A stretch of DNA of 57,604 nucleotides from Bacteroidota bacterium (GTDB taxonomy: Bacteria; Bacteroidota; Rhodothermia; Rhodothermales; UBA10348), in contig JAQBZH010000014.1 of NCBI GenBank assembly GCA_027622005.1, forward strand, positions 1-57,604. Reading direction: 5' to 3'. Positions 20,670 to 57,487 of this stretch are shown here, in pieces; the stretch's first letter is position 1; the number at the start of each line of letters is the position of its first letter. The position numbers and the translations under genes are program-made. The notes under the pieces are model-generated. The model worked only from the letters and a program-made list of their open reading frames with translations. It did not search any database and was not told the origin of the DNA.

Positions 20670-20680
20670 CGTCCAGCGAA

Positions 20681-20718
20681 CGCCCCGATTGCGAAAGCAA
20701 CCGGGGCGTTTCTTTTTT
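20681..20718 (+). terminator. Terminator after tRNA-Ser
   Basis: Stem CGCCCCG/CGGGGCG, one A-C mismatch, inner stem TTGC/GCAA with a GAAA loop, then TTTCTTTTTT. Confidence 0.92.
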
Positions 20719-20720
20719 AC

Positions 20721-20847
20721 CGAAGAGAGCTTGCTCTCGAAGGGGGAAAAGAAACGACTCGGCCGCGCGAAGCGCGGAAGGGGCGGACATTGGTAAGGAG
20801 TGCCAGGGCTAACGGCGAGCGAAGCGAGCCGTAATCCTCTCTCTCCG
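20721..20847 (+). repeat. Three GC-rich hairpins ending in a copy of the tRNA-Ser 3' end
   Basis: Hairpins at 20725-20738, 20763-20777 (CCGCGC-GAA-GCGCGG) and 20813-20831 (CGGC...GCCG around a GC-GAA-GC core). They are followed by AATCCTCTCTCTCCG at 20833-20847, which matches the last 16 nt of tRNA-Ser (20654-20669) with one C missing. The copy is 178 bp downstream of the original. The layout matches the one beside tRNA-Cys at 52741-52890. Confidence 0.75.
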
Positions 20848-52743: not shown

Positions 52744-52807
52744 GGAGGTGACGGACGGATTTATTCGGGGCTCGCGCCCCTCATCGATTCGGAACGCTAC
52801 GCGTTCC
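52744..52807 (-). repeat. Copy of the tRNA-Cys 3' end with two GC-rich hairpins
   Basis: GGAGGTGACGGACGGATT at 52744-52761 is an exact 18-base copy of 52890-52907 (the 3' end of the tRNA-Cys element), 146 bp away. Hairpins GGGGC-TCGC-GCCCC (52767-52780) and GGAACGC-TAC-GCGTTCC (52791-52807) lie between copy and terminator. Read in tRNA direction the order is tRNA, terminator, hairpins, copy, as beside tRNA-Ser. Confidence 0.8.
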
Positions 52808-52844
52808 TCGGGTGAACCCTGTTCTCATCCGTGCCTGTAAACTT

Positions 52845-52889
52845 AAAAGGTCTCCTGCCCGGCACTAATGTGCCAGCCAGAAGACCTTT
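52845..52889 (-). terminator. Terminator after the tRNA-Cys element
   Basis: On the minus strand, AAAGGTCT pairs with AGACCTTT, with inner CTG/CAG and GGCAC/GTGCC pairs and an ATTA loop, ending in TTTTAAG. It directly follows the encoded CCA. Confidence 0.85.
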
Positions 52890-52974
52890 GGAGGTGACGG
52901 ACGGATTCGAACCGTCGTACAGGGTTTTGCAGACCCTTGCCTAGGCCTATCTGCTAATCCTGTAACTCGTTGCC
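52889..52974 (-). tRNA. tRNA-Cys(GCA), intact 3' part, abnormal 5' part
   Basis: On the minus strand, the part from the D-loop onward is standard: anticodon arm AGGGT-CTGCAAA-ACCCT with anticodon GCA, variable loop GTAC, T-arm GACGG-TTCGAAT-CCGTC, acceptor 3' strand CGTCACC, discriminator T (usual for Cys) and encoded CCA (52889-52891). The matching 5' acceptor strand GGTGACG is missing. The best fit, GGCAACG (52968-52974), has two mismatches and leaves a D region about 10 nt too long. Hence probably a 3' fragment or degenerate gene. The other two tRNAs here do not encode CCA. Confidence 0.6.
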
Positions 52975-53154
52975 TCCCAATAGCCTCGTTCGATGATGAC
53001 CACAGCGGGTGTGGTTATGTTCATCAGTTTTGACAACAGTACGTTGCCAATTAATGGTAAATCTAGGTGTAAAAGCACCTCAAGTCAAACAGGGAGTAGG
53101 GGGGTAAAACGGTATTTAACAGTGCTGGTGCTACCCCCTTCTGACACGCGCCTC
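52975..53154. other. Gene-free stretch right of tRNA-Cys
   Basis: No gene is seen on either strand. A small hairpin AGGTG/CACCT lies around 53068-53083 and a G-run near 53096-53104. Open frames here lack family motifs. Confidence 0.4.
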
Positions 53155-53442
53155 CTATTTCAGCAATATGAGCTTCTTGGTTGCGACGAAGTCTCCAGCT
53201 TCGATGGTCACGAGGTAAGTCACTGACGAAAGCCTTCCCGCATCGAACTGCACCGTATGGTAGCCTGCCGGCTGCGTGGTGCCGCTAACCAAAGTTGCTA
53301 CGTTTCTGCCAAGCTAGTCCGTCAAGGTGATGCGCACCTCGGAGGCGACAGGAAGCCCATAAGAAACGGTAGTGGTCGGGTTGAAAGGATTTGGGTAAGC
53401 AGCCTTCAGGACGAAGCTCTCGGGCAACCCATGTCCACGCTT
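53155..53442 (-). pseudogene. Remnant of a T9SS C-terminal sorting domain
   Basis: Reading minus from about 53432 gives LPESFVLKAAYPNPFNPTTT, then VSYGLPVASEVRITLTD, TAG (53314-53316), LGRNVATLVSGTTQPAGYHT, VQFDAGRLSSVTYLV and ...KKLILLK before the final stop (53155-53157). This is a whole type A T9SS tail, but no signal peptide or catalytic domain precedes it (a stop lies just upstream) and one codon of the D-x-LGR turn is TAG. The body of the gene has been lost. Confidence 0.85.
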
Positions 53443-54186: not shown

Positions 54187-54459
54187 GTGTACAACAGCCC
54201 CAAAATATCGTATAAAGTGAGTTTCATCTACCTAACTCCAAAGTTGGTGTGTGCGCTAAAGCGTAGTCGAGCCCACATTCCATCTTCGATTCAAAGGATT
54301 GTATTTGAGCGGGATGAAGGTAAATGTGTGTTATGTGGTACAGAGACTGATCTTCAATTCGATCACATTGTGCCGCACTCAAAAGGTGGAGGAGACCAGG
54401 TTGAAAATCTTCGACTTCTCTGTCGTGATTGCAATTTGAAGAAAGGTGCCGACTTCTAA
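54187..54459 (+). CDS. HNH endonuclease
   Basis: 90 residues. The HNH core is complete: CVLC (first zinc Cys pair), FDHIVPHSKGGG (His of the HNH and metal ligand), ENLRLL (Asn) and CRDCN (second Cys pair). The N-terminal ~30 residues are short and not conserved. The start is GTG at 54187, with no good alternative. Small stand-alone HNH enzymes are common on mobile DNA. This one sits in the region proposed as an island. Confidence 0.85.
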   Translation: MYNSPKISYKVSFIYLTPKLVCALKRSRAHIPSSIQRIVFERDEGKCVLCGTETDLQFDHIVPHSKGGGDQVENLRLLCRDCNLKKGADF

Positions 54460-54604
54460 ACATCTCGGACATGCGGGCTAATAAGTGCATTTTGGGGACT
54501 CGCACGACTGGCTGAAGTGGTTGGAAACGGTTACTTTCTGTTAGGCGTGTGCTCGCTCGCCTTAGTTGGGCTGGCTTGCTGGACTCTATTAAACCTAAAA
54601 CTCA

Positions 54605-55111
54605 ATGGAATCTTTTGAAGATTTTACTGTCCGATTGACAACTACAAATCGTAGATTTAGACATGCTACTGTCTCCGAACTGCGAAAATATTACAATCAA
54701 AAGTATGGTGTTTGGCCTTCAGTGCAAGGGGGCTCAGGCCAAAATGAAACCGCCTTTCCCAAGAGTCAATCCGCCCCTCATGTTAGGTTAGTCAATACCC
54801 ATCAGACTCTAGACAGGGTGGCTACTTTCATCAGCCTTGTCGGTTGGCTGGTGGTGTGCCTTGGCTCCGTGACAGCTTTAGTCGTATTGGGAAATGGCCT
54901 TGCTGCTTTTCTAATAATCCTTGCCGGGGCTTCAATTCGGACTCGGTTTTGCGAAAACTATTTTTGGGGGATATGGATTTTCGCAAAACCGAGACTAATT
55001 TATTTTTTGCATTTTGTCCGCGCGGAGGAGGGGTCTGGGGAGGAATCCGCGCGGGCTTCTTCTGATTTTTTTGGCGAATTATTTAGTGCCAGAAGTATTA
55101 AAAAGTGGTAA
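54605..55111 (+). CDS. Hypothetical membrane protein
   Basis: 168 residues, no recognised family. The first 70 residues are hydrophilic. Two hydrophobic segments (about 72-96 VATFISLVGWLVVCLGSVTALVVL and 98-108, then 118-132 FWGIWIFAKPRLIYFL) suggest two or three membrane passes. The coding sequence contains a perfect 16-bp inverted repeat (54942-54993) and, near its end, a GC-rich hairpin followed by T7 (55018-55072). The C-terminal part may therefore be chance coding or later insertion. It ends 12 bp before the start codon of the next gene. Confidence 0.5.
   Translation: MESFEDFTVRLTTTNRRFRHATVSELRKYYNQKYGVWPSVQGGSGQNETAFPKSQSAPHVRLVNTHQTLDRVATFISLVGWLVVCLGSVTALVVLGNGLAAFLIILAGASIRTRFCENYFWGIWIFAKPRLIYFLHFVRAEEGSGEESARASSDFFGELFSARSIKKW
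54942..54993. repeat. Perfect 16-bp inverted repeat inside a gene
   Basis: CTCGGTTTTGCGAAAA (54942-54957) and its exact inverse (54978-54993) flank a 20-bp spacer. Unusual for coding DNA. Confidence 0.85.
55018..55072 (+). terminator. Terminator-like hairpin
   Basis: CCGCGCGG at 55018-55025 and again at 55047-55054 (self-complementary, so able to pair) with a purine-rich loop. T7 follows at 55066-55072. It lies inside the end of the hypothetical gene and just before the AT-rich pair. Confidence 0.5.
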
Positions 55112-55122
55112 AACGAAATCAA

Positions 55123-56583
55123 ATGAAAAAGAAGTTGTATTTATCATTAGGATTACTCCTCGTAATTCTGCTGTATGCAGGCTCTTTTGTTTTTTCATAC
55201 AGTCGTATTTTGAAAAGCAACGACCCACTTCTTATTACAGATGTTGCGCGCCTTATTCCTCTGAAAGTCCACCGAGTAGATACATTAGACAATGTTGAAG
55301 ATTTAAAAAAAGTTCTTGCCGAAGCAAAAGAGAAAAAGCTAAAAGTTTCGATTTCCGGTAGTAAGCATAGCCAAGGCGGTCATACCTACTACCAAGACGC
55401 GATAGTTTTAGATATGTCTTCCTTTAATAAAATCCTTGACCTTGATGTTGAAAAGAAAATTATCCGAGTTCAGAGCGGCGCGAAATGGAAGGATGTACAG
55501 GAATATATAAATCCATATAAACTTGCGGTCAAAGTAATGCAGTCATCATATGTTTTCACGATCGGAGGAACGTTGAGTGCAAACGCTCATGGTAGAGATT
55601 TGGATATGTCTTCTGTTGTAGAAACTGTGAGATCATTTCGATTACTTAATGCCAATGGCGAAATTTTGAATTTTAGTCGCACGGAAAATCCTGAATTGTT
55701 TAGGTTAGTTATCGGTGGTTACGGACTTTTCGGTGTTATTCTTGATGTTGATATTGAACTTACAAACAACGATGTTTATGAACAAAAGTCGGTTGTCATG
55801 GATTACAAAGATTTTCCCGAATACTTTCAGAAAAATATTAAAGACAATTCAGAAGTAGAAATGATGTTGGTTCGACCATCAATTGCTACCGATACTTTTT
55901 TGCGCGAACTAGTAGTGGCTACATGGAATAAAACTGACAAAACTAAAGAAAATATTTATGATCTTACTGAAGAAGAAAATGTGATGCGCGACAAATTTGT
56001 TTTTGGTTTATCGCGTAAGTATACTTGGGCAAAAAATTGGAGGTGGAATTTACAAAAGAAAATTGAAACTGGTGTCGGAGAGGCGCGAGTTATGTCTAGG
56101 ACTAACGCCATGCGCCCGCCACTTGCTCCTTTAGAATTGCTTGATTATTATTCTTCAGGCGATACAGACATACTTCAGGAGTATTTTATTCCTGTTAGAA
56201 ACTTCATGCCTTTTATGGATGAGTTTCGAGAAATTCTTTTGAAAGATAAAGTGAATACTATCAGCTTTACTATTCGTTATGTAAAAGCGAACAATGAGAC
56301 CTATATGGCTTATGCGCCGACAGAGGATGCTTTTGCTATAATTTATATGACGAATGTCAGTTTATCGGAAAAAGCTCAAGAAAAAATTGAGAAGACGACT
56401 CAAAAAATTGTAGATACGGCGATAAAGAATTCCGGCACCTATTATTTAACCTATCAACTATATCCGACAAAAGAACAAATGCGAAAAGCATATCCGAACA
56501 CTGATTTATTCTTTGCAAAAAAACTTCAATACGACCCTAGCGAAATGTTTATGAACAAATTCTATGAAAAATATGCTAAATAA
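55123..56583 (+). CDS. FAD-dependent sugar-lactone oxidase (D-arabinono-1,4-lactone oxidase type)
   Basis: 486 residues from the ATG at 55123 (MKKKLYLSLGLLLVILLYAGSFVF), which begins a membrane anchor or signal. The VAO-type FAD domain follows: KVSISGSKHSQGGHTYY (FAD loop; this His is the covalent flavin link in related lactone oxidases), IGGTLSANAHGRDLDMSSVV, and VIGGYGLFGVILDVDIEL. The C-terminal half has the ALO-type substrate region. It oxidises an aldonolactone, passing electrons to O2 or a carrier; the substrate cannot be told. The A+T content (over 60%) and Lys/Asn/Ile-rich codons differ sharply from the rest of the window, pointing to recent transfer. Overlaps the next gene by 20 bp. 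Confidence 0.85.
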   Translation: MKKKLYLSLGLLLVILLYAGSFVFSYSRILKSNDPLLITDVARLIPLKVHRVDTLDNVEDLKKVLAEAKEKKLKVSISGSKHSQGGHTYYQDAIVLDMSSFNKILDLDVEKKIIRVQSGAKWKDVQEYINPYKLAVKVMQSSYVFTIGGTLSANAHGRDLDMSSVVETVRSFRLLNANGEILNFSRTENPELFRLVIGGYGLFGVILDVDIELTNNDVYEQKSVVMDYKDFPEYFQKNIKDNSEVEMMLVRPSIATDTFLRELVVATWNKTDKTKENIYDLTEEENVMRDKFVFGLSRKYTWAKNWRWNLQKKIETGVGEARVMSRTNAMRPPLAPLELLDYYSSGDTDILQEYFIPVRNFMPFMDEFREILLKDKVNTISFTIRYVKANNETYMAYAPTEDAFAIIYMTNVSLSEKAQEKIEKTTQKIVDTAIKNSGTYYLTYQLYPTKEQMRKAYPNTDLFFAKKLQYDPSEMFMNKFYEKYAK

Positions 56584-57487
56584 AAAGATTTTAAGAAAAA
56601 TTTTGTACGCTCTGCTCGTCGTCGTTATTTTTAGTTTAGTTTATCTTTTTCTTTATGAACCAAGTTATAGTGGTTTAATTCAGAAACAAGATAGAGTGCT
56701 CGTATTTGCTCACAGGGGCTTCGGTAATCTCGCACCAGACAACAGCTTGGTGGCGGCTAAACTCGCCATGCAAAATAGCATGGATGGGGTTGATGTTGAT
56801 GGGCAGTTCAGTGCTGATAACGAATTGGTCATATTTCACGATTTAAGCGTTGATAGACTCACAAATAGTACTGGGAAAGTAAATAGTAAAACTGTTACTG
56901 AATTATTAAAATTAGATTTAGCCACAAAGTATGGCAAGGGTTTTGAAAATGCATATGTTGCGACCTTTGATGATTTTGTGCGGGAAATAACGCCCAATGG
57001 AATTCTCATGGTGGAATTAAAGGTGCCGAGTAGTAAAGATACGGGTATAGAGAAACGCGCTGCGGAAATTATAAAGAAATACAATGCTTATGAAAATGTA
57101 TATTTAAGCTCATTCAATCCTCTTGTTCTTTATCGCCTCAAAAAGATTGATCCTCGAATCCGAACAGTTTTTATTTTTATGGATACTAACTGGAATCCGG
57201 AACTTATAGCAGAAATTAAAAAGGATGATTTGGTTAATCTGCCTTGGTTTTTGCGTAACGAGACTATTAGGCGAGCAATTCGAAATATTGTTAAACCTGA
57301 CGCATTGAGCGTGAACAATGAAGTAGATGAAAAGACTATCAATACTCTCATTAAAAAGGGATATCCGATTTTCCTTTGGACGATTGATGAGGAAAATCGT
57401 TTAGAGTGGGCGTTGGAGAAAAAACCTTACGGGATAATTTCTGATGAACCGATAATTACTAAAAAATTACGCGATGGAAAAGAATAA
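56564..57487 (+). CDS. Membrane-anchored glycerophosphodiester phosphodiesterase family protein
   Basis: 307 residues. One N-terminal membrane helix (about 12-32, ILYALLVVVIFSLVYLFLY), then a GDPD TIM barrel: FAHRGFGNLAPDNSL (catalytic His), VDVDGQFSADNELVIFHDLSVDRLTN (second His in FHD), MVELKVP (metal-binding Glu) and ...YPIFLWTIDEENR...GIISDEPI. Asp replaces Glu in APEN and in the ELDV site, so metal-site geometry may differ from the best-studied enzymes. It overlaps the oxidase gene by 20 bp, shares its AT-rich codon use and is surely co-transcribed. Probably acts outside the cytoplasmic membrane. Confidence 0.9.
   Translation: MKNMLNKKILRKILYALLVVVIFSLVYLFLYEPSYSGLIQKQDRVLVFAHRGFGNLAPDNSLVAAKLAMQNSMDGVDVDGQFSADNELVIFHDLSVDRLTNSTGKVNSKTVTELLKLDLATKYGKGFENAYVATFDDFVREITPNGILMVELKVPSSKDTGIEKRAAEIIKKYNAYENVYLSSFNPLVLYRLKKIDPRIRTVFIFMDTNWNPELIAEIKKDDLVNLPWFLRNETIRRAIRNIVKPDALSVNNEVDEKTINTLIKKGYPIFLWTIDEENRLEWALEKKPYGIISDEPIITKKLRDGKE

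Follow-up and report, generated by a model that had tools for sequence, protein, structure and literature searches.

A divergent RtT-type element with inverted and direct copies of the tRNA end in the tRNA-Cys flank of a Bacteroidota bacterium

Why should the end of a tRNA be written out a second time a short way behind the tRNA itself? The question is raised by a locus on contig C15 of a Bacteroidota genome (G000); the window below is the whole 57,604-nt stretch of this contig that was analysed, and the locus, 52744-52978, is read on the minus strand. A sequence-only reading had described here 18 bases of the tRNA-Cys 3' end, repeated exactly at a distance of 146 bp. This is correct: the window has exactly two occurrences of AATCCGTCCGTCACCTCC on its minus strand, one being the tRNA end and the other lying at 52744-52761, 146 bp from start to start. 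The two hairpins named between them, GGAACGC-GTA-GCGTTCC (hp1, 52791-52807) and GGGGC-GCGA-GCCCC (hp2, 52767-52780), are also present, each with GA/GA flanks. What had been overlooked was an inverted copy of the tRNA end and the link to the RtT element of E. coli.

Behind the tRNA end the minus strand carries a terminator-like hairpin at 52845-52889 (stem AAAGGTCTYCTG.., short T tail), which the consensus terminator scan did not report. The RtT-type unit follows at 52744-52835 and extends from an inverted to a direct copy of the tRNA end. Its inverted copy of the tRNA 3' part, GGCACGGAT (52827-52835), forms the 5' arm of a stem P1. Next comes the hairpin P2, GAAC-AGG-GTTC (52814-52824), whose 3' arm copies the end of the T-stem plus TTC, then hp1 and hp2, and finally, at 52744-52761, the 18 nt that directly repeat the tRNA-Cys 3' end; they supply the 3' arm of P1 and a tail. 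The unit was the sole match in the window (52745-52834, 43.4 bits, E 3e-12) to R1, a covariance model built on 13 units, none of them from E. coli, after their long hairpins had been shortened; R1 E-values are rough, and this score is not independent, as the unit is among the 13. Folded by itself, it gave a z of -2.5. Rfam models run on the window and nine unit loci reported tRNAs, one cobalamin riboswitch and chance matches below the cut-off, and nothing else.

The tRNA-Cys itself had been taken for a tRNA gene, and this claim does not survive: it is a fragment of the 3' part, called by neither ARAGORN nor Rfam. The 56 nt at 52889-52944 (minus strand) are identical to the last 56 nt of an intact tRNA-Cys(GCA) on contig C35, while the 5' halves are unrelated; in the window the 5' half is replaced by the sequence at 52945-52978, apparently the end of an island. 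The genes behind the intact tRNA encode a tyrosine integrase (Phage_integrase, E 2e-31) and a protein with Toprim/AAA_25. The 25-nt TACTGTTGTCAAAACTGATGAACAT, found at 53017-53041 on the minus strand and again just behind the intact tRNA-Cys, thus recurs at both island ends and may be an integrase arm site. Being identical over 56 nt to the 3' part of an intact, integrase-trailed tRNA, the window "tRNA-Cys" is no functional tRNA gene and most likely the attR remnant of a tyrosine-integrase island. A second genome, G017, provides an analogue (L331), in which tRNA-Cys, integrase, an island of about 11 kb, a second tRNA-Cys-like end and then a unit (R1 match at 1099775) lie on one contig; the 5' half of that second end resembles the sequence next to the window fragment. 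In genome G007 tRNA-Cys has no island and the unit lies directly behind it. Because the unit stands directly behind tRNA-Cys in the island-free genome and behind the island remnant in G017, it belongs to the native tRNA-Cys flank. For the window genome we infer an island between the intact tRNA-Cys and the unit, since contigs C35 and C15 are not joined; in G017 both junctions are on one contig. Annotators should be aware that tRNA fragments next to RtT-type units can be integrase scars.

Other sequences at the presumed island end were noted. At 53155-53400 on the minus strand a remnant frame (NPFNPTT...) with an internal stop has the look of a T9SS C-terminal sorting domain, and 54187-57487 on the plus strand encodes a small HNH endonuclease, a FAD-binding oxidase and a glycerophosphodiester phosphodiesterase, probably island cargo.

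The sequence-only reading had further proposed that two of the three window tRNAs share one design. This holds for tRNA-Ser(GGA), with a one-base gap in its copy; tRNA-Lys lacks the design, and the Cys member of the pair is the fragment described above. The Ser-type unit lies at 20671-20847 on the plus strand and consists of a terminator, a T-run/A-run stem and hairpins, with its last module at 20806-20837 and its copy, AATCCTCTCTCTCCG, at 20833-20847. R1 does not match this unit, and its placement in the same class therefore rests on architecture. The last module (stem, tandem GA, stem, GNA loop) was found in 16 of 16 Ser-type modules, of which only the GNA loops count as independent evidence, for the search required GA/GA and not GNA. 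Behind tRNA-Ser(TGA) of genome G009 (L062, L284) four GA-flanked hairpins stand in a string that ends in TTAAATCCGCC.

Is the copying a property of single loci or of the genome? We scanned 400 nt downstream of each of 40 tRNAs in the window genome (39 called genes and the tRNA-Cys fragment), with 100 shuffles per tRNA. Copies of 17-18 nt were found behind Asn, the Cys fragment and Ser-gct, of 12 nt behind Ser-gga and of 11 nt behind Arg-acg; once the downstream DNA was shuffled, matches reached at most 11 nt, with a mean of about 6.3. The scan against shuffled controls thus gives the excess of copies that the earlier reading expected. Over five genomes a copy of at least 10 nt was present at 13 of 150 tRNAs, versus 20 of 4396 swapped pairs of tRNA and downstream sequence; two of the five, G017 and G028, had none. 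Many tRNAs have no unit.

Across 113 genomes of the order R1 gave matches in 43 (rough E up to 0.1), and the weak ones are partly chance. We read 72 of these matches: 28 had a called tRNA no more than 300 nt upstream, and in 21 of the 28 a 14-19 nt copy of the end of that same tRNA was present. Some of those without a called tRNA stand behind tRNA-Cys remnants (L273, L279) or tRNA 3' fragments (L274, L282). R1 matches in G152 and G401 had no nearby tRNA and were judged to be chance, as were the four matches of a phylum-wide IC+P2 pattern, none of them near a tRNA; a pattern scan of viral contigs returned no match. Dispersed unit cores free of tRNA occur in three genomes (L280 and L307-L313 in G106; L285, L316 and L317 in G044; L281 and L315 in G051). 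They have the same hairpins and the same linkers (ACACGA, GACTGAYGA and GAGTAA), and are possibly mobile relatives of the unit core.

Does the copy follow its own tRNA when that tRNA changes? Where tRNAs of the same anticodon differ between two genomes, the copy equalled the own tRNA in 69 comparisons, the other tRNA in 0 and neither in 5; these comparisons are not independent, and some of the tRNAs are maybe not orthologous. The Cys copies illustrate the point: the window genome has AATCCGTCCGTCACC, G002 has AATCCGCCCGTCATC and G004 has AATCCGCCCGTCACC, and in all three the adjoining tRNA end reads identically. The structure is conserved, it is linked to tRNAs, and its copies track the end of the tRNA beside them. 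The claims that chance is unlikely and that a common mechanism is at work are supported by the genome scan, the covariance model and the relatives, which reveal a recurrent, covarying, tRNA-tied unit.

In related genomes the same plan stands behind seven tRNA types (Asn, Arg, Cys, Glu, Pro, Val and Met). Usually a terminator comes first, and behind it the 3' part of the tRNA in inverted copy, as with CCCGGGTAGGAT-GA-GAACC behind Asn of G007; P2 follows, with a 3' arm similar to the T-stem and TTC, and then a linker AMAC; the second half runs GA-hp1-GA, CTNAY, GA-hp2-GA, RTA and the direct copy, from AATCC to the discriminator. By its layout the unit is in effect a copied tRNA 3' domain with hairpins set into the T-loop. 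The linkers AMACGA, GACTNAYGA and GARTAA and the compensated stems are kept across tRNA types and genera. In genome G022 the Asn and Val units have P2 and linkers in common, and each carries its own tRNA end. Tandem arrays that end in a truncated unit were seen behind Asn in the window genome and behind Pro in G027. Between the two Asn units of G022 (L239) a longer, MITE-like insert with the inverted repeats AAGCGTTTTGA / TCAAAACGCTT at its edges occupies the second unit's P2 loop. Contig C60 of the window genome (L292) carries a second copy of an Arg-type unit together with its downstream flank and has no adjoining tRNA gene.

In 37 aligned natural units 86.8% of cells were paired versus 67.2% in shuffled ones, the covariation score was 0.446 versus 0.159 +/- 0.011 for shuffled and at most 0.088 for slid alignments, and 19 of 24 pairs had changes on both sides; this alignment was fitted to the model and is therefore biased towards structure. 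In a MAFFT alignment that was not structure-fitted (A1) the score was 0.347 versus 0.163 +/- 0.021. P1 and P2 together contain 30 G-U pairs versus 8 A-C mismatches, an excess that leans towards RNA, whereas the pairs of hp1 and hp2 are Watson-Crick in 284 cases and G-T in one, and most of the loops are GNA. GNA loops form very stable DNA mini-hairpins, and the pairing of hp1 and hp2 would fit single-stranded DNA hairpins at least as well as RNA. A hammerhead ribozyme, with its CUGANGA...GAA core and UH cleavage site, was considered and rejected: CTTACGA or CTAACGA stands in many of the units, a cleavage motif is not conserved, and the window and nine unit loci gave no Rfam hammerhead match.

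What, then, could have made and kept such a unit? Of the two mechanisms offered earlier, recombination at tRNA ends would explain the tRNA-Cys fragment, as an integrase attR scar, and not the hairpin unit, while a selected RNA would suit the hairpin unit, with its conserved RtT-type structure in the native tRNA-Cys flank, and not the fragment. We somewhat favour the reading in which the RtT-type element of the tRNA-Cys flank acts as a putative read-through structured RNA. Transcription past the tRNA terminator would yield a tail RNA with a branched fold: P1, in which the inverted copy of the tRNA 3' end pairs with the direct one, would be combined with P2, hp1 and hp2. Through its direct copy the tail would have a tRNA-like 3' end, a substrate for ordinary tRNA 3' processing, and a small structured RNA may be released in this way; release of such an RNA has been reported for E. 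coli rtT. The copy may be kept identical to the tRNA by conversion or unequal exchange of neighbouring copies, by selection on the shared end, or by both. In the window genome the integrated island would now part the unit from its intact tRNA-Cys, and the adjoining tRNA piece would be the attR of that island.

The main rival of a read-through RNA, which we regard as rather unlikely, is a spreading DNA hairpin repeat. Here a tandem-GA core, copied or moved as single-stranded DNA, would enter hairpin loops such as the T-loop and duplicate the tRNA end, arrays would be resized by recombination, and any RNA would be incidental. The nearly pure Watson-Crick pairing of hp1 and hp2 with GNA loops speaks for this, together with the arrays whose last unit is truncated, the tRNA-free cores of G106, G044 and G051, and the Asn and Val units of G022, alike in P2 and linkers and different in tRNA end. 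However, the G-U excess in P1 and P2 goes against it, and units stand behind the same tRNAs in related genera, as inheritance predicts. Mobility of the RAYT/REP kind, recognisable by a Y1 transposase flanked by repeats, was rejected: ten tested genomes of the window's family contain no Y1/RAYT transposase, and the Y1 transposases of G044 and G106 are not clearly flanked by units.

The copy might also be the work of integrases, either the remnant of an attachment site or a decoy attB, kept to protect the tRNA gene. The probable attR next to the window unit agrees with this, and so does genome G004, where a second island has its left end, including a truncated integrase (MASLYKRRDNYYLAFHQ..., L273), right behind the direct copy of the tRNA-Cys unit; from this case integrases can use the copy as an attachment site. 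As an origin of the unit it is nevertheless improbable, since most units have no neighbouring integrase, an attB needs neither an inverted copy nor paired hairpins, and the island att identity at the window locus is 56 nt, not 17-18. Repeated template switching at the terminator hairpin, with the unit as a neutral by-product, would leave a hairpin between an inverted and a direct copy and could hold the copies identical to the tRNA, but the linkers and compensated stems conserved across tRNA types and genera, and related units in another phylum, weaken it so far that we give it very little credence.

The relatives in another phylum are those of E. coli. In 47.6 kb R1 matched, over their full length, three of the four E. 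coli rtT units and no other sequence (rough E 3.3e-5 to 1.9e-3), a result to be read with the fact that letters derived from the T-arm are common to all tRNAs and favour any cross-phylum match; over 64 control tRNA loci it found three known units and one 13-bit match. In the other direction, RF00391 (gathering cut-off 45 bits) matched no unit of the window's family; its weak matches in eight genomes, where read, were without a tRNA and look like chance. In another Bacteroidota family, f28, it did match units: 11 of the 86 genomes gave hits, none of them above the gathering cut-off, with a best per-genome E of 1.7e-7. All 20 of the f28 matches examined stand behind tRNA-Ser with its own 17-19 nt copy, and one element behind tRNA-Ser in f28 genome G446 was matched by both RF00391 and R1. 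The units thus have a place directly behind a tRNA with a copy of its own 3' end, P1 around a branched core, tandem GA and a reciprocal model match. Judged by these features, the window unit, part of the native 3' flank of tRNA-Cys, belongs to the RtT type as a divergent member. The Bacteroidota units and E. coli RtT likely form divergent branches of one class, with common descent, not proven, preferred over convergence.

The E. coli rtT repeats next to tyrT are an old finding, and to our knowledge they have no agreed role and no known relatives outside enterobacteria. The MG1655 record annotates the element as a small RNA, RttR. A characterised regulatory sRNA and a small ORF adjoining tRNA-Tyr are mentioned in PMC11623569, which cites Bosl and Kersten 1991, the tandem GA of RtT was pointed out in PMC7657543, and a 2009 Salmonella comparison listed rtT RNA among loci of variable length (PMC2658671). 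Our literature search on Bacteroidetes repeats behind tRNAs, rtT and RF00391, which covered few subscription journals, returned only work on E. coli and Salmonella rtT and structure papers. We tentatively suggest, with some doubt, that RtT is a cross-phylum class of tRNA-tail elements with in-step inverted and direct copies of the 3' end of their own tRNA, whose tail could sense or buffer 3' processing or serve as a decoy. If so, RtT would be no E. coli curiosity, and the enzymes and integrases that recognise the tRNA 3' end would be the targets of the decoy. Units behind many tRNA types offer comparative data for testing a role of RtT, and R1 gives annotators a model for an unannotated element.

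Among known systems, integrative elements at tRNA genes share the tRNA 3' identity at attL and attR, which accounts for the tRNA-Cys fragment, and the use of the copy as attB in G004; they leave unexplained the inverted copy, the covarying hairpins and the recurrence behind many tRNAs. REP palindromes with RAYT are similar in their short palindromic cores, multi-copy in a few genomes, but the Bacteroidota units are tied to tRNA ends and the ten family genomes tested have no Y1 transposase. The E. coli rtT of tyrTV (RF00391, rttR) also lies behind a tRNA gene and has an inverted copy including GGATGAGAA, P2, tandem-GA hairpins, a direct tRNA 3' end copy as period boundary, and tandem arrays. 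In contrast to rtT, found behind tRNA-Tyr, the Bacteroidota units stand behind seven tRNA types, have a shorter hp1-hp2 region and their own terminator, and are RF00391-negative; for them no protamine-like ORF is claimed. The tRNA-Ser units of f28 (G446 and others) have the same order of parts and their own 17-19 nt copies as in the window's family, and in sequence and in an extra hairpin between hp1 and hp2 they are nearer to E. coli RtT.
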